From: Terriglobia bacterium
GTDB taxonomy: Bacteria > Acidobacteriota > Terriglobia > JAJPHL01
Length of the DNA stretch: 64,000 nucleotides
Direction of reading: 5' to 3'
NCBI GenBank assembly: GCA_021325275.1
Contig: JAJPHL010000068.1
Coordinates: 1 to 64,000 of the forward strand
Below, piece after piece: positions 2,262 to 9,217 of this stretch. The position numbers and the translations under genes are program-made. Under the pieces are notes generated by a model. The model was given only the letters and a program-made list of their open reading frames with translations. It was not told the DNA's origin and ran no database searches. How positions within the stretch are numbered: the stretch's first letter is position 1; every line of letters begins with the position of its first letter.

Positions 2262-3035
2262 ATGAGGCCAATGCGGATTTCAGGACTTTTAGCGCTCGCG
2301 CTCGCGACACTGGTGTGCCTCGCGTCCGCGCAATTCCCGCCGCTTCCCGGATCGCGTCGCGAGCCCGGGCCCGAGCCAAAGGGACTCGAATTGAAATGGC
2401 TCGGCGACACCAGCGGACAAGGTTTGCCGTCCGTTGAATTGACCAACGCCTACACGTCGCCCGCCACCGCGTACATCATGCAATTCGAGCACGTCGACGG
2501 CGAGAGCGTCACCGTGATCAACTCCTGGCCGATTCAAGCGGTGCCGCGCGGCGGAACGCCGCTGGAGCCGGGACAATCGCGCATCTACACGGCGAATAAA
2601 GGTCCTGCGAAATCGAGCGGCGCGAACTCCGCGCGCGTGGTGTGCACGATTTTTGCCGATGGCCGCACCACCGGAGACGATTTGTGCATTCGCCGCTTCC
2701 TGGACAAGCGGCGGCAACTGCTGCGCGAAGATATTCCGCGCGTGCTGGACATTTTGAAAGCGGCCATCGAACAGCCCAAGATTGACGTGAAGGGCATCAT
2801 GGATCAAATGGACCAAGTGATTTTGGAGCGCTCCGATTGGGCCAAGGGGCAGCAGCCTTTTAGTCCGTTGCTCGCGGAGGCGCGCGCCTATGCGACGGTG
2901 AAAACGAGCCTCGCGTTTTTGCAAGGTCGCTATAAGGATCGCGCATATGTGGTCGAGACCTTCAAGAAACTGATCGCGCAATTGGAATCATGGCGGGAAG
3001 ATTTGCAGGCCAGCAAGCCCGAACTCGCGCCTTAA
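2262..3035 (+). CDS. hypothetical secreted protein
   Basis: A 257-residue protein beginning with a clear signal peptide (hydrophobic LLALALATLVCLASA followed by QF), so it is probably exported. The mature part starts proline-rich, then has a beta-rich stretch resembling a small immunoglobulin-like or DUF fold, and ends in charged helices. No catalytic motif or known family is recognised. An ATG three codons downstream (2271) gives the neater signal peptide and is an equally good start. It follows the MFS gene by 20 bases and ends 41 bases before the his leader peptide, so it probably closes the first operon. Confidence 0.75.
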   Translation: MRPMRISGLLALALATLVCLASAQFPPLPGSRREPGPEPKGLELKWLGDTSGQGLPSVELTNAYTSPATAYIMQFEHVDGESVTVINSWPIQAVPRGGTPLEPGQSRIYTANKGPAKSSGANSARVVCTIFADGRTTGDDLCIRRFLDKRRQLLREDIPRVLDILKAAIEQPKIDVKGIMDQMDQVILERSDWAKGQQPFSPLLAEARAYATVKTSLAFLQGRYKDRAYVVETFKKLIAQLESWREDLQASKPELAP

Positions 3036-3076
3036 GCCCGGCCAATCGCTGCGCGAATGTGCTATTCTGATCCTTC

Positions 3077-3148
3077 ATGATTCAGCCGATTCAAACTCAG
3101 CATCATCACGGCCATCACGCGGCCGCGCGCCGGGTTTGTCCTTGCTGA
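3077..3148 (+). CDS. hisL: his operon leader peptide (attenuator peptide)
   Basis: A 23-codon open frame placed where a his attenuator peptide should be, just upstream of eight his-operon genes. It reads MIQPIQTQ, then HHHGHH, then AAARRVCPC and a stop: five of six consecutive codons are histidine (3101-3118). Ribosome stalling at these codons when charged His-tRNA is scarce would control the downstream hairpins. A TATTCT hexamer at 3063-3068, eight bases before the ATG, may be the -10 of the operon. The peptide itself would have no other role. Confidence is high because the peptide, terminator and biosynthetic operon agree, although no expression evidence is available. Confidence 0.85.
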   Translation: MIQPIQTQHHHGHHAAARRVCPC

Positions 3149-3182
3149 AACACGCATGAATCGAAAGGACACGAGGCCCGGC
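3129..3182 (+). promoter_or_regulatory. predicted antiterminator pairing of the his attenuator
   Basis: GCCGGG at 3129-3134 can pair with CCCGGC at 3177-3182, and GTCC at 3138-3141 with GGAC at 3167-3170. This alternative helix uses the 5' arm of the terminator hairpin and so is mutually exclusive with it. A smaller upstream hairpin, GGCC 3110-3113 with GGCC 3121-3124, overlaps the end of the His codons. A ribosome stalled on the His codons would disrupt that small hairpin and could favour the antiterminator. The pairings are seen in the sequence; the mechanism is inferred from known his leaders. Confidence 0.6.
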
Positions 3183-3202
3183 TGAATGAGCCGGGCTTTT
3201 TT
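3176..3202 (+). terminator. his operon attenuator (intrinsic terminator)
   Basis: An 8-bp perfect stem, GCCCGGCT (3176-3183) with AGCCGGGC (3189-3196), a five-base loop GAATG and a run of six T. It lies between the His-rich leader peptide and hisI. The first possible hisI start codon (3186) is inside the loop, so the hairpin could also hide the translation start. Confidence 0.85.
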
Positions 3203-3557
3203 GTTTATGCAACTCGACTATTCGAAATTGGGCGGACTCGTTCCCGCCGTCATTCAAGATGCGGCGACGCGCGAAGTCCTGATGCTGGGATTTATGAATG
3301 AAGAAGCGTTTGAAAAAACGCTGGCGAGTGGATTCGCCACGTTCTTCAGCCGCACGCGCAATCAACTGTGGATGAAGGGCGAAACCAGCGGCCATCGCCT
3401 GCGTGTGCGCGAGGTCCTGGTCGATTGCGATAATGATTCGCTGGTGGTGCTCGCGGAGCAGGAAGGCGCGGCCACGTGTCACGAAGGCTATCGCACTTGC
3501 TTCTTCCGCCGCTTGGAGAATGGGGATCCCGTGATTGTTCTGGAAAAAACGTCATGA
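3186..3557 (+). CDS. hisI: phosphoribosyl-AMP cyclohydrolase
   Basis: Opens the adenine ring of phosphoribosyl-AMP in the third step of histidine synthesis; a cytoplasmic zinc enzyme. The protein has the typical fold core ([15 protein letters not shown]), the metal-binding segment VDCDNDS and the Cys/His region [12 protein letters not shown]. It is monofunctional: there is no fused HisE (phosphoribosyl-ATP pyrophosphatase) part and no hisE beside it. Two starts are possible. The ATG at 3186 has a GAGG nine bases upstream but sits in the terminator loop; the ATG at 3207, just after the T-run, gives 116 residues but has no SD. The 3' end overlaps hisG by four bases (ATGA). It is the first structural gene of the operon, an unusual position for hisI. 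Confidence 0.92.
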
Positions 3558-4423
3558 AACTGAAACTCGGCATTCCGAAGGGAAGTTTGCAAGACGCCAC
3601 CGTCGATCTTTTTCGCCGCGCCGGATTCCACATTCACGTGAGTGAGCGCTCCTACTTTCCCACCGTCGACGATCCGGAACTGGAATGCATGCTGATCCGC
3701 GCGCAGGAAATGTCGCGCTACGTGGACGACGGCATTCTCGACGCGGGACTCACCGGCCTCGACTGGATTCGCGAAAATCAATCGGACGTGGTGGAAGTTG
3801 CGGACCTCGTATACGCCAAGCAAAGCTTCGGCAAAGTTCGCTGGGTGCTCGCGGTCCCGGAAGCGTCGCCGATTATGGGGCCCCGCGACTTGCAGGGGAA
3901 GATTGTGGCGACGGAATTGGTCGGCGCGACGAAACGCTATCTCGAGTCGCACGGCGTGAAGGCGAAAGTGGAGTTTTCCTGGGGCGCGACGGAAGTGAAG
4001 CCGCCGGAACTGGCTGACGCGATTGTCGAGGTTACTGAAACCGGATCGTCGTTGCGCGCCAACAAACTGCGCATCGTCGACACGGTGATGGAGTCGAACA
4101 CCAAGTTCATCGCCAACAAAAAATCGTGGAAAGATTCCGCGAAGCGCCAGAAACTCGAAAATCTCAAGATGCTTTTAGAAGGCGCGATGGCGGCCTTCGG
4201 CAAAGTGGGATTGCTGCTGAACGTAAACAAGAAAAACCTGCCGGCGGTGTTGAAAGTATTGCCGGCGCTGAAACGTCCCACAATCTCCAATTTGAGCGAG
4301 CGCGGTTGGGTGGCGGTGCACACCATTCTCGACGAGCGCACGGTGCGCGACATTATTCCGTTGCTGAAAAAAGCGGGCGGGCAGGGAATTGTCGAATACC
4401 CGCTGAACAAGATTGTGATGTAA
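3554..4423 (+). CDS. hisG: ATP phosphoribosyltransferase, long form
   Basis: Catalyses the first committed step of histidine synthesis, joining ATP and PRPP. At 289 residues it is the long HisG form, with the catalytic periplasmic-binding-like lobes (starting [21 protein letters not shown]) followed by a C-terminal ACT-like regulatory domain of about 75 residues that normally binds histidine for feedback inhibition. Long-form enzymes do not need HisZ, and no hisZ is present. The chosen ATG overlaps the hisI stop (ATGA); the open frame runs further upstream but that part is antisense-like and not needed. Fourteen bases separate it from hisD. Confidence 0.95.
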
Positions 4424-4437
4424 CGCGTGATTCAAAC

Positions 4438-5631
4438 ATGCGCATTCTGGAACTGAAACAACTCGATGCGTTCTTGCGGCGGCGGCGCGTGGCGCTGGAC
4501 CGCGCCGAAGCCGTGGCGCGCCCGATCATCGATGACGTGCGGAAGCGCGGCGATCGCGCCGTGGAGGAGTACGCGCACAAGTTCGACAACTATGATGGCC
4601 CGCTGCGCTTGGGTCCAGTGGAAATGCGGCGAGCTTGGCAGGCCGTCGATGCGTCGCTGCGACGGGCCCTCCGCGAGTCGGCCAGGAATATCGAGAAATT
4701 CGCGCGCTGGCAGCGGCCGAAGTCGTGGATGCGTGCGGTGTCGCCGGGGGTTCGTGCCGGGCAAATCGTAGTGCCGCTGGCGAGCGCCGGATGCTACGCG
4801 CCGGGCGGACGTTTTCCGCTGCCGTCGACGGTGCTGATGACGGCGATTCCCGCGCGTGTCGCTGGAGTCGAGCGTGTGGCGGTGGCGTGTCCGCGCGGAC
4901 CGTTGATCGTGCTGGCCGCCGCGCATGCCGCGCGTGCTGAATCGCTCTATCCCGTCGGCGGTGTGCAAGCGATCGCTGCGATGGCTTACGGTACGCGGAA
5001 AATTGCGCGCGCCGAGCGCATCGTCGGTCCCGGAAATATTTATGTCACGGCGGCCAAGAAGATTGTCGCAGCGGAAACGGGCATCGACTTCATCGCGGGA
5101 CCAACGGAGATTGTGCTGGTCGCAGAGAAGGGCAATGCCGGACATATCGCCGCGGACATGATGGCGCAGGCCGAGCACGATCCCGCGGCCGTGGCGATTC
5201 TGCTAACGCCGTCGCGCGCGCTGGCTCGCGCCGTCGCTGCGCAAATCGGCCCGCAGTGGACGAATTGTGCGGCGGTCCTCACGCGATCGCTCGATGAAGC
5301 CATGGAGGTGTCGAACCGCATCGCGCCCGAACACTTGTGGCTCGCCGATCCGCGTTTGTTGCCGCGCGTAACCAACGCGGGCAGCATATTCCTGGGCGAT
5401 CACAGCCCGGTGGCGGCCGGCGATTACGCCAGTGGTCCCAACCACACGCTGCCCACGGCGGGCGCGGCGCGCCTCCGCGGAGGATTGTCGGTGAACGATT
5501 TTCTGAAAGTGGTCACGGTACAGCAACTGACGCCGCGAGGGCTGGCTCGCCTTGCGGCGACGGTCGTGGAGCTCGCGCGCGCCGAAGGTTTGGAGCATCA
5601 CGCGCGGTCCATCGAGGCACGTTTCAAATGA
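4438..5631 (+). CDS. hisD: histidinol dehydrogenase
   Basis: Oxidises L-histidinol to L-histidine in two NAD-dependent steps (last step of the pathway); a zinc metalloenzyme acting as a cytoplasmic dimer. The protein is 397 residues, somewhat shorter than the 430 typical of enterobacteria. Family landmarks are present: GCYAPGGRFPLPSTVLMTAIP, VGGVQAIAAMAYGT, VGPGNIYVTAAKK, DFIAGPTEI, MAQAEHDP, the Glu/His pair IAPEHLWL and DYASGPNHTLPT near the C-terminus. The start at 4438 gives MRILELKQL, consistent with the family N-terminus. It overlaps hisC by four bases (ATGA). Confidence 0.95.
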   Translation: MRILELKQLDAFLRRRRVALDRAEAVARPIIDDVRKRGDRAVEEYAHKFDNYDGPLRLGPVEMRRAWQAVDASLRRALRESARNIEKFARWQRPKSWMRAVSPGVRAGQIVVPLASAGCYAPGGRFPLPSTVLMTAIPARVAGVERVAVACPRGPLIVLAAAHAARAESLYPVGGVQAIAAMAYGTRKIARAERIVGPGNIYVTAAKKIVAAETGIDFIAGPTEIVLVAEKGNAGHIAADMMAQAEHDPAAVAILLTPSRALARAVAAQIGPQWTNCAAVLTRSLDEAMEVSNRIAPEHLWLADPRLLPRVTNAGSIFLGDHSPVAAGDYASGPNHTLPTAGAARLRGGLSVNDFLKVVTVQQLTPRGLARLAATVVELARAEGLEHHARSIEARFK

Positions 5632-6665
5632 AGCCGAATACCGCTGTTCTACAGATGGATCCCTACAAGCCGCCGTCCTCGGGCCGCGACGGCTTTCTGC
5701 GCCTCGACTTCAACGAGAATACGGTGGGCTGTTCGCCGCGTGTGGTCCGTGCGCTCATGCGCGCGCTGAATCGCGAGATGTTGACGGTGTATCCCGAGTA
5801 CGAATCGTGCCGCGCGGAGATGGCTGCGGCTTTCGGATCTTCGGGCGACGACATTCTCTTGACCAATGGCACCGACGATGCACTGCTCCTGCTGATGAAC
5901 ACATTTGTCGAGCCCTCGCACCGTATCGTGGTCGCGGAACCGTGTTTTGCGATGTATCGCTTTTACGCGTCGCTGATGGGCGCGGAGGTTATTGGAGTGC
6001 ATCGCGGGAAACGCTTCGAATTTCCCGAGGACGGCGTCCGCGAAGAATTGCGCCGCGGCGCACGCGCGGTGTTCATCGACAATCCGAACAATCCCACGGG
6101 CACGGTCGTGACTCCCGAATACATCGAGAGCTTGGCTCGCGAGTTCCCTCAGACGCTGGTGGTGGTGGATGAAGCGTATTACGACTTTTACGGCAAGACC
6201 GCTCTGCCGCTCCGTCACAAGTACACGAATCTGGTGATCACGCGCACGTTTTCCAAGGCCCAAGGACTCGCGGGCATCCGGCTCGGCCTGATCTTCGCGT
6301 CAACGGAAACGGCGGCGCATCTTCGCAAAGCTCATTCACCGTACAACGTGAACGGACTCGCGGTGGTCGCGGGACTCGCCGCGCTACGGGATCGCCAATA
6401 CCCGCGCCGGTATGCGAAAGCGATTGTCGCGGCGCGCAAATATCTCGAGAGGGAACTTCGCCGCCTGAAAATCGATTACATCCCGAGCGCTGCGAACTTC
6501 GTGCTGGCGCAATTCGGCGAGCGCGCCATTGAAATGCGCGACGCGCTGCGCAGCCGCGGCATCCTGGTCCGCGATCGCAGCTACGAGGCTCCGGGATGGG
6601 TCCGCGTGACGGTGGGAACGATGCCGCAAATGAAACGTCTCGTTCGCGAACTGGAGCGACTGTGA
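5628..6665 (+). CDS. hisC: histidinol-phosphate aminotransferase
   Basis: A PLP-dependent fold-type I transaminase of 345 residues that converts imidazole acetol phosphate and glutamate to histidinol phosphate. Recognisable features are the substrate-entry region LDFNENTVG, the PLP-binding DNPNNPTG, VVVDEAYYDFYG and the Schiff-base lysine in RTFSKAQGLAGIRLG, with the phosphate-binding Arg near the C-terminus. The start overlaps the hisD stop (ATGA) and its own stop overlaps the GTG of the HAD gene (GTGA), so it is embedded in the his operon and the assignment rests on both family and context. Confidence 0.93.
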   Translation: MKPNTAVLQMDPYKPPSSGRDGFLRLDFNENTVGCSPRVVRALMRALNREMLTVYPEYESCRAEMAAAFGSSGDDILLTNGTDDALLLLMNTFVEPSHRIVVAEPCFAMYRFYASLMGAEVIGVHRGKRFEFPEDGVREELRRGARAVFIDNPNNPTGTVVTPEYIESLAREFPQTLVVVDEAYYDFYGKTALPLRHKYTNLVITRTFSKAQGLAGIRLGLIFASTETAAHLRKAHSPYNVNGLAVVAGLAALRDRQYPRRYAKAIVAARKYLERELRRLKIDYIPSAANFVLAQFGERAIEMRDALRSRGILVRDRSYEAPGWVRVTVGTMPQMKRLVRELERL

Positions 6666-7333
6666 AAAAGCTGCTGGTTTTCGACATGGACGGCGTGCTG
6701 GTGGAAGTGCGCGCGTCTTATCGAGAGGCCATCATCGCGACCGTTGCGCAATTCGGCGGACCGGCACTCGATCAGCGCGACATTCAATTTCACAAGAGTC
6801 GCGGCGGATTCAACAACGATTGGCTGCTGAGCTGGACACTGCTGAAGGAAAACGGAATCGAGGTGCCGTATCAAACCGTGATCGACGCGTTTCAGTCGAT
6901 CTATCGCGGTGCGAACGAAGACGGATTGATGCTACGCGAGCGCTGGTTTCCGGCGAACGGATTGTTGGAACGGCTCGCGGAAAAACATCGCTTCGCGCTT
7001 TTCACCGGCCGCTTGCGTGAAGAGGCGCGTTGGGCGCTGAAGCACTTCGGTTGCCCCCATGCGTTCGATCCACTCGTCGGCATGGATGATGTACAGCAAG
7101 AGAAACCGAGTCCCGAGGGACTGCTGAAGATCATGGAGCAGACCGGCGAACGCGATTTCACTTACGTCGGCGACACCGCCGACGACTTGCGCGCCGCGAA
7201 TGGCGCGGGCGTGCGATTCATCGGAATCGCCGCGCCCGATTTGCCCGATCGCGACGTGTTGCTGAAGCAATTTCGCGAACTCGGCGCGGCGGCGGTGATT
7301 CCCGACATCAACTCTTTGGAAGAAGTCTTATGA
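6662..7333 (+). CDS. HAD-superfamily phosphatase, candidate histidinol-phosphatase
   Basis: A 223-residue haloacid dehalogenase-like hydrolase with motif [10 protein letters not shown] at the N-terminus, motif II TGR in [10 protein letters not shown], the Lys of motif III near [10 protein letters not shown] and motif IV VGDTADD. The general type is phosphoglycolate phosphatase-like. It starts with GTG overlapping the hisC stop and overlaps hisB by four bases, so it is tightly coupled inside the his operon. HisB here is only the dehydratase and the window shows no PHP-, HisN- or HisB-N-type histidinol-phosphatase. By position this enzyme is therefore the best candidate for dephosphorylating histidinol phosphate. 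That role is inferred; activity on other phosphates is possible. Confidence 0.85.
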
Positions 7334-7923
7334 AGAAGCGCAGCGCGACGGTGGAACGCAACACGGCGGAAACGCGCATTCGCGCCCGCCTGGTGATCGA
7401 AGGCCGCGGGCGGTACAAGGTCCGCACAGGCGTGCGTTTTCTCGACCACATGCTCGAATTGTTCACCAAGCATGGCGGATTCGATCTCGAGTTGCATGCC
7501 GACGGCGACCTGGATGTCGATCAGCATCACACGGTGGAAGACGCGGGGATCGTGCTCGGCCAGGCGTTCGATCGCGCGCTCGGCGACCGCCGGGGAATCA
7601 ACCGGGCCGGATATTTTCTGATGACCATGGACGAGGCGCTGGGCCTCGCAGCCGTTGATTTGGGCGGGCGTCCGTATTTGGTGCTCGCTACGAAAGTGCG
7701 TCATCGTCTGGTCGGCGATCTGCAAGTGGAATTGCTCGAGGATTTCTTCCAAGGCTTTGCGGTGCAAGCGCGCGCCAACGTGCATTTGAAGGCGCTCTAC
7801 GGCCGGTCGTCGCACCACAAGATCGAAGCGATCTTCAAGGCGTGGGCGCGCGCGATGCGCACGGCGTGTTCGCGCGACCGCCGCATGGCCCGGGAACTTC
7901 CCAGTACGAAAGCATTGTTATGA
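7330..7923 (+). CDS. hisB: imidazoleglycerol-phosphate dehydratase
   Basis: A manganese-dependent dehydratase of 197 residues that converts imidazole glycerol phosphate to imidazole acetol phosphate. Both metal-binding His/Glu repeats typical of the duplicated fold are present: [12 protein letters not shown] with [10 protein letters not shown] in the first half and [20 protein letters not shown] in the second. It is monofunctional, lacking the N-terminal histidinol-phosphatase domain found in E. coli HisB. The ATG overlaps the stop of the HAD gene and its stop overlaps hisH, both as ATGA. Confidence 0.95.
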
Positions 7924-8492
7924 TCGCGGTGATCGATTACGGCGCGGGCAATTTGTACTCCGTCACGAACGCGCTCGACCTCTTTGGAACAGCGTACCGG
8001 CTCGCTAAAACCCCCGGCGACCTCGCGGAATCGTCGGCGATTCTACTTCCCGGCGTCGGGCATTTTGGACAAATGATGGACGCGCTGGCGCGTCTCGGCA
8101 TAATTGAACGTTTGCGCGAGAAGCTGGCGGCGCATACGCCGTACATGGGAATTTGTCTCGGGATGCAGGCGCTCTACGAGTCGAGCGAAGAAGCGCCGGG
8201 CGTCGCGGGCCTCGGAATTCTCAAGGGAAAAGTTCTCCGCTTCCCGGCAGGAGAAAAAATCCCGCACATGGGTTGGACGGAAGTTTCCGGGCGCAGCTAT
8301 TACTTCGCGCATTCCTACTATGTGCCGGCGGACGCCGAAGGTTCCTCGGCGACGGCCCGGCACGGAATTGATTTCGCAGCCATGGTGAGGCGAGGAAATC
8401 TCTTCGGCACCCAGTTTCATCCGGAAAAATCGGGCGCCGCCGGCATCGCGCTGCTAAAGGAGTGGGTGACGTCGTGCCAGCCAAGCGGATAA
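7920..8492 (+). CDS. hisH: imidazole glycerol phosphate synthase, glutamine amidotransferase subunit
   Basis: A class I glutaminase of 190 residues that supplies ammonia to HisF. It starts [15 protein letters not shown], carries LPGVGHFG (oxyanion strand), the nucleophile Cys79 in MGICLGMQ and the His167/Glu169 pair in FHPEKSG. The ATG overlaps the hisB stop (ATGA) and the hisF start lies inside its last codons, as expected for the two subunits of one heterodimer. Confidence 0.95.
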
Positions 8493-9217
8493 TCGCGTGT
8501 CTCGACGTGAAAGATGGACGCGTCGTGAAGGGTGTCGAGTTCGTCGCGCTGCGCGACGCCGGCGACCCGGCGGAGTTGGCCGCGGTGTACTCGGAAGCCG
8601 GCATCGACGAAGTGGTTTTCCTGGACATCACGGCGTCGTCGGATCATCGCGATGCGATGGTCGACGTGGTCGCGCGTACCGCGAAACGGGTGTTCATCCC
8701 GCTGACGGTTGGCGGCGGCGTACGATCGGTTGCGGACGCGCGTCGCTTGCTTCGAGCCGGCGCGGATAAAGTCAGCGTGAACACGGCGGCGGTGGAGCGT
8801 CCTGCGTTGATCACGGAGTTGTCGGAGGAATTCGGCGCGCAAGCGGTTGTGTTGGCCATCGACGCCCGCGAACGCACGGTTTTCACGTACGGCGGACGCC
8901 GTGAGACGTCACTGGATGCGGTCGAGTGGTCGCGCGAAGGCGAACGCTTGGGTGCTGGCGAAATCTTACTGACCTCGATGAATCATGACGGCCGCAAGAC
9001 CGGCTTTGCGATCGCCCTGACACAAGCGATTTCCACGAGCGTGGGAATTCCGGTGATCGCCTCGGGCGGCGGCGGAACGCCCGAACATTTTCGCGACGTC
9101 CTGACCGAAGGCCGCGCCGACGCCGCACTCGCGGCGTCCATTTTTCACTATGGCGAGATGGCGGTGCCGGTGTTGAAGGAATATCTCGCGGAGCAGGGCG
9201 TCGAGGTCCGAAAATAG
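8474..9217 (+). CDS. hisF: imidazole glycerol phosphate synthase, cyclase subunit
   Basis: A (beta/alpha)8-barrel cyclase of 247 residues that forms the imidazole ring, releasing AICAR. Both catalytic aspartates are present, Asp11 in ACLDVKDG and Asp130 in VLAIDARE, along with the phosphate-binding VGGGVRS and SGGGG. The GTG at 8474 is chosen because AAGGAG lies about 11 bases upstream and the family N-terminus is [10 protein letters not shown]; an in-frame GTG at 8462 would lie on the SD itself. It overlaps hisH by 19 bases and is the last his gene. HisA, its usual neighbour and barrel relative, is missing here. Confidence 0.94.

Follow-up and report, generated by a model that had tools for sequence, protein, structure and literature searches.

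Transcription attenuation of amino-acid operons is textbook knowledge for Proteobacteria; Acidobacteriota are a dominant, hard-to-culture phylum of soils. In mycobacteria, which belong to Actinobacteria, leaderless Cys-rich upstream ORFs serve as amino-acid-rich leaders controlling a biosynthetic operon, cysteine being the amino acid concerned. The his attenuator of Escherichia coli and Salmonella consists of a leader peptide with His codons, three pairings (1:2, 2:3 and 3:4) and a terminator before the his operon; the leader described here resembles it in these respects, its 1:2 pairing being a predicted fold. Candidate his attenuators of Firmicutes are given for the Bacillus cereus group, Peptostreptococcaceae and Erysipelotrichales (PMC9413887); they have in common with the present leader a His-rich leader peptide, a terminator and an antiterminator before his operons, and a place outside Proteobacteria. 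In the trp attenuator of Sinorhizobium meliloti (trpL / rnTrpL), the RNA begins with the AUG of the leader peptide and is leaderless (PMC7298713), a property predicted for the present leader mRNA as well. For Acidobacteriota, about 13% leaderless genes were predicted in all three genomes surveyed (PMC3160421), and almost no attenuators with an assigned function are available (PMC2965389).

Here, a leader before the his operon was analysed in a 64,000-nucleotide stretch of DNA from a Terriglobia bacterium (the window). It is with high confidence a conserved ribosome-mediated leader-peptide transcription attenuator of the his operon, and in the model presented below the his genes would very probably be switched off when histidine is plentiful.

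Anatomy of the leader and of the his operon

All parts of the leader and operon listed here lie on the forward strand. The leader peptide ORF, MIQPIQTQHHHGHHAAARRVCPC, found by reading of the sequence and by ORF scan, comprises 23 codons from the ATG at 3077 to the TGA at 3146-3148 and is followed by a 25-nt spacer up to the terminator. Its codons CAT CAT CAC GGC CAT CAC (3101-3118) encode HHHGHH, with five His in six residues, and this run, the proposed sensor, is kept in relatives. An intrinsic terminator (3174-3202; stem AGGCCCGGCT/AGCCGGGCTT, loop GAATG, T6), detected by scan and backed by covariation in relatives, sits between the leader ORF and the first structural gene, hisI; its core stem GCCCGGCT/AGCCGGGC corresponds to 3176-3183/3189-3196, and the six T occupy 3197-3202. 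The 5′ strand of the antiterminator, or segment 2, is GCCGGGTTTGTCCT (3129-3142), assigned by duplex energy and the swap test described below. The 3′ strand, or segment 3, is AGGACACGAGGCCCGGC (3166-3182), which overlaps the terminator 5′ arm and was assigned by ribosome-position folding and the swap test; the duplex of the two segments amounts to -23.5 kcal/mol in the window. Finally, a hairpin 1:2 (3081-3149), in which 3081-3086 and 3092-3098 pair with 3132-3138 and 3144-3149, appears in the minimum free energy fold. The predicted pairings of the leader, namely 1:2, the antiterminator 2:3 and the terminator 3:4, are mutually exclusive. The region 3050-3220 folds more stably than its shuffles (z = -2.37), and its minimum free energy structure contains the 1:2 hairpin together with the terminator. 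The antiterminator of the window taken alone reaches only z = -1.0 against shuffles, so that its statistical weight comes from the set of 58 leaders considered below. The 23-codon peptide, the GC-rich terminator with six T, the alternative antiterminator pairing and the position directly before the his genes had all been proposed by a first-pass annotation, and each of them is borne out.

Directly 3′ of the leader, naming by NCBIfam gives the his-making genes hisI-hisG-hisD-hisC-HAD-hisB-hisH-hisF; no hisA was named in the stretch. hisI, encoding phosphoribosyl-AMP cyclohydrolase, is the first gene of the operon (3207-3557; NF000768, 141 bits with a cutoff of 126), and the remaining genes from hisG to hisF, including a HAD phosphatase-like gene, cover 3554-9217. 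The HAD-family gene between hisC and hisB (6662-7333) scores 123 bits with TIGR01548, below the cutoff of 140, and is a candidate for the histidinol-phosphate phosphatase gene. The closest HisI proteins are those of Acidobacteriota: the one other genome of the order encodes a HisI with 73% identity, and the protein of Bryobacteraceae bacterium SKYG128 is 67% identical.

The hisI ATG is located 4 nt after the T run of the terminator (3197-3209) and lacks a Shine-Dalgarno sequence, which makes the initiation of hisI unusual; an alternative in-frame ATG is found at 3186, inside the terminator loop. Since hisI has no clear Shine-Dalgarno sequence, part of the effect of the terminator hairpin might be on translation. 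A purely translational control, in which the hairpin would mainly hide the hisI start that comes right after it, is very unlikely, because a T run of the kind seen at intrinsic terminators follows the hairpins, and several relatives have hisI tens of nucleotides further down with its own Shine-Dalgarno-like motif. Control by a known riboswitch, such as a His T-box, has a practically negligible probability. Histidine T-boxes do control his operons in Firmicutes (PMC9413887), but at the gathering threshold neither the window nor any of 13 related and comparison loci matches an Rfam family (the T-box among them), and the sub-threshold Rfam matches in the leader include neither T-box nor His_leader.

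Conservation and co-variation of the competing pairings

Because the family of the window comprises this genome alone and the order just two, the comparison set was taken at the level of class and phylum. Of the 69 class-level genomes with the upstream region read, 61 carry, no more than 320 nt from hisI, an ORF in which four or more of eight residues are His, and two further class relatives have a weaker His run, so that a His-rich ORF precedes hisI in 63/69; random 320-nt stretches of the loci give 1.8% (4% at three His), a background in which true leaders are still included. The six genomes lacking the ORF are four of one family (L085-L088), where hisI is followed directly by hisD, L075, for which only 270 nt of upstream sequence was present, and L080. 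Upstream of hisI at 2013 in L080, the terminator and an antiterminator-like sequence are retained and the His run is lost; this leader is possibly decayed or re-targeted. Beyond the class, the same architecture occurs before hisI (L114-L120, L124, L264, L266 and L267), before hisD (L163, L164 and L169), before hisZ-hisG (L256) and before hisG (L152, L249-L251, L257 and L265). The first-pass annotation had regarded such an attenuator as unusual for this kind of genome; it is indeed apparently undescribed in the phylum, but inside the phylum it is normal.

A covariance model of the element, built from 37 leaders including that of the window, has a single match in the entire 6.86 Mb genome, namely this leader (E = 2.7e-8). 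It also matches in many families of the phylum, with false ones among the weaker matches; matches in L253, L258, L260, L262 and L263 were judged false or doubtful, as no convincing leader was seen on inspection. A terminator rule allowing only near-perfect stems and short loops misses most genomes of family f10, which turned out positive once their sequences were read and the covariance model was applied.

The gene upstream of the leader is on the same strand and ends at 3035, 42 bp away, which would fit a hairpin that is simply the terminator of that gene, with the His-rich ORF having arisen by chance. This explanation is barely credible and was rejected: throughout the class, the His ORF and the terminator are kept before the first his gene; segment 2 and the terminator arm co-vary; and the single covariance-model match of the genome is at his.

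Exclusivity of the pairings was addressed by folding 58 leaders according to the position of the ribosome and recording the state of the terminator 5′ arm before its 3′ arm is made. Pairing of this arm was 0.84 with the ribosome in the His run, 0.47 with the ribosome at the stop codon and 0.65 with segment 2 shuffled; the stalled value exceeded the shuffled one in 55 of the leaders and the at-stop value in 57. In the swap test, each segment 2 was paired either with its own terminator arm or with the arms of other leaders. Own arms gave -23.0 kcal/mol and swapped arms -18.9 in the 58 leaders, and none of 20,000 permutations was as good. The p-values are optimistic, since the relatives share ancestry and are not independent samples. 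Segment 2 and the arm change together between groups: they read GCCGGG/CCCGGC in the order of the window, and GACGGGC/GCCCGCC in Bryobacteraceae; a further family has TGTCAGTGGGC/GCCCGCTGGCA, and a different group of the phylum has CCGGAGGG/CCCTCCGG. Four of the eight consensus pairs of the terminator are changed on both sides. The way in which the sequences switch from family to family makes a convincing case for the competing pairings. Folding and the swap test further point to an antiterminator that would exclude the terminator and be exposed only when the ribosome is stalled on the regulatory codons. The reading as a histidine attenuator in the first-pass annotation is supported as well; covariation of the two competing pairings in relatives, the check suggested with it, was found, and the outcome named as refuting it, a lack of conservation of the His run and the hairpins, was looked for and did not occur.

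Predicted leaderless start and proposed mode of action

The window reads TATTCT-gatccttc-ATG at 3063-3079, that is, a promoter -10 box TATTCT (3063-3068) 8 nt before the leader ATG. This position is kept: 48/58 leaders have a TANNNT hexamer ending 5-12 nt ahead of their start codon, with a sharp peak at 8-10 nt, and dinucleotide-preserving shuffles give a mean of 5.0 and a maximum of 13 in 500. TTGAC is found 15-19 nt upstream of such a hexamer in 31 of the 58 leaders; the -10 box of the window is good and its -35 box weak, and the -35 box of its order-mate is good. Shine-Dalgarno-like motifs before the leader start show no excess (5/58, with 4.5 expected in shuffles). The spacing of the -10 box suggests that transcription starts on the leader AUG or no more than a few bases away, and the excess of TANNNT together with the chance level of Shine-Dalgarno motifs suggests that the leader peptide is probably made from a leaderless mRNA, with transcription in the window predicted to begin at the ATG or no more than about 2 nt from it. 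The first-pass annotation had assigned the extent 3063-3207 to the attenuator; TATTCT at the left end is better read as the promoter box than as leader RNA, and the likely leaderless start had been missed.

The same attenuator might instead have an ordinary 5′ untranslated region, arising from a promoter further upstream or from read-through out of the upstream gene, which is on the same strand at a distance of only 42 bp. Exceptions of this type occur in relatives; L163 and L169, from one other group of the phylum, have an ordinary leader with a Shine-Dalgarno-like GAAGGAG before the ATG, and L152 has a short 5′ untranslated region. For the window, such a start is nevertheless unlikely, given the peak of -10 boxes 8-10 nt before the start, their presence at 5-12 nt in 48 leaders where about 5 are expected, and a frequency of Shine-Dalgarno-like motifs no higher than in shuffles.

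The computation bears on the elements of the leader, with their order, conservation, mutual exclusivity and co-variation. With a leaderless start, the following mode of action can be proposed, in which we infer ribosome stalling, the histidine response, the site of the transcription start and the early 3′ end. RNA polymerase would start at or a few bases from the leader ATG, and a ribosome would load straight on the 5′-terminal AUG and trail the polymerase. When charged tRNA-His is scarce, the ribosome would stall on the His codons at 3101-3118 and leave segment 2 (3129-3142) free to capture the emerging 5′ arm of the terminator; no terminator would then form, and hisI to hisF would be transcribed. 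When histidine is plentiful, the ribosome would run to the TGA at 3146-3148 and cover segment 2, the 3174-3202 hairpin would form, and transcription would stop near 3202, yielding an RNA of about 125 nt. If the leader is left untranslated, segments 1 and 2 would pair and the terminator would form too.

Variants, other leaders and relation to known systems

Several further arrangements were noticed in the phylum. Tandem his attenuators, with two His-rich leader ORFs in series before hisG and a terminator for each, are found in four genomes from two genera of family f30 (L152 at 90-500, L249, L250 and L251). In L005 (3340-3570) and L026 (270-500), the His-rich leader lies between hisI and hisG, not before hisI, and comes with a terminator and a promoter-like sequence of its own. 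A strict rule for conventional single-hairpin leaders found none before trpE, ilvB or leuA in 14 genomes. On inspection, three Bryobacteraceae genomes (L194, L195 and L196) showed branched-chain-rich ORFs (e.g. ...ALILVVQVVVVIIGVGVAGLA) about 150-300 nt before ilvB, followed by a long-loop hairpin of the GGCCAC...GTGGCC-T5 type that falls outside the strict rule, suggesting Ile/Val/Leu attenuators. On the minus strand of L252 (3522-3650), an Ile-rich leader, MSHAGSTLIIAAIAIIPSREGA, and a terminator precede a threonine dehydratase-like (ilvA) gene, and on that of L254 (3647-3768), a Thr-rich leader, MGMGMLITTTTGRPIGARAVS, reminiscent of E. coli thrL, and a terminator precede an aspartate kinase-like gene. 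A His-rich ORF, LPAEARHHHRHHHHHPHR, with a hairpin just before a carA-like gene in L261 (3297-3406, minus strand) is away from the his leader of that genome and may be due to chance. A broader reading, favoured with moderate confidence, is that leaderless leader-peptide attenuation in Acidobacteriota is ancient and phylum-wide, with his as its main target and ribosomes loading on a nascent 5′-terminal AUG close behind the polymerase, and that some lineages stacked two serial His attenuators or extended the device to Ile/Val/Leu and Thr genes.

The analysis assigns a function to one attenuator of Acidobacteriota, for which the ligand can be tested and the phylogenetic range is clear. The predicted leaderless start would offer a simple natural system for studying how 70S initiation on a 5′-terminal AUG can keep close enough to RNA polymerase for termination to be decided about 125 nt later. 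A covariance model is also supplied for a family absent from Rfam: the His_leader model RF00514 (gathering threshold 49 bits) matches in 0/14 phylum genomes and recognises the E. coli control, and the element is therefore not filed under it. No earlier description in Acidobacteriota was found in the literature searched; a comparative study of attenuation, Lopatovskaya et al. 2010 (cited in PMC4833913), could contain one, and priority is uncertain.

The element is classed within classical ribosome-mediated his attenuation, as a leaderless form of it, and not as a new principle; what appears to be new is the predicted leaderless start and the phylum-wide spread, apparently undescribed in Acidobacteriota. 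In contrast to the trpL of S. meliloti, which senses tryptophan, belongs to Alphaproteobacteria and yields a trans-acting RNA and peptide (PMC7298713), the present leader gives no evidence of such products. It differs from the Firmicutes candidates in phylum and in the predicted leaderless start, which the accessible part of PMC9413887 does not report for them. Unlike the his attenuator of E. coli and Salmonella, it belongs to another phylum, precedes hisI and not hisG as the first gene, and is predicted to start without a leader sequence ahead of its AUG.
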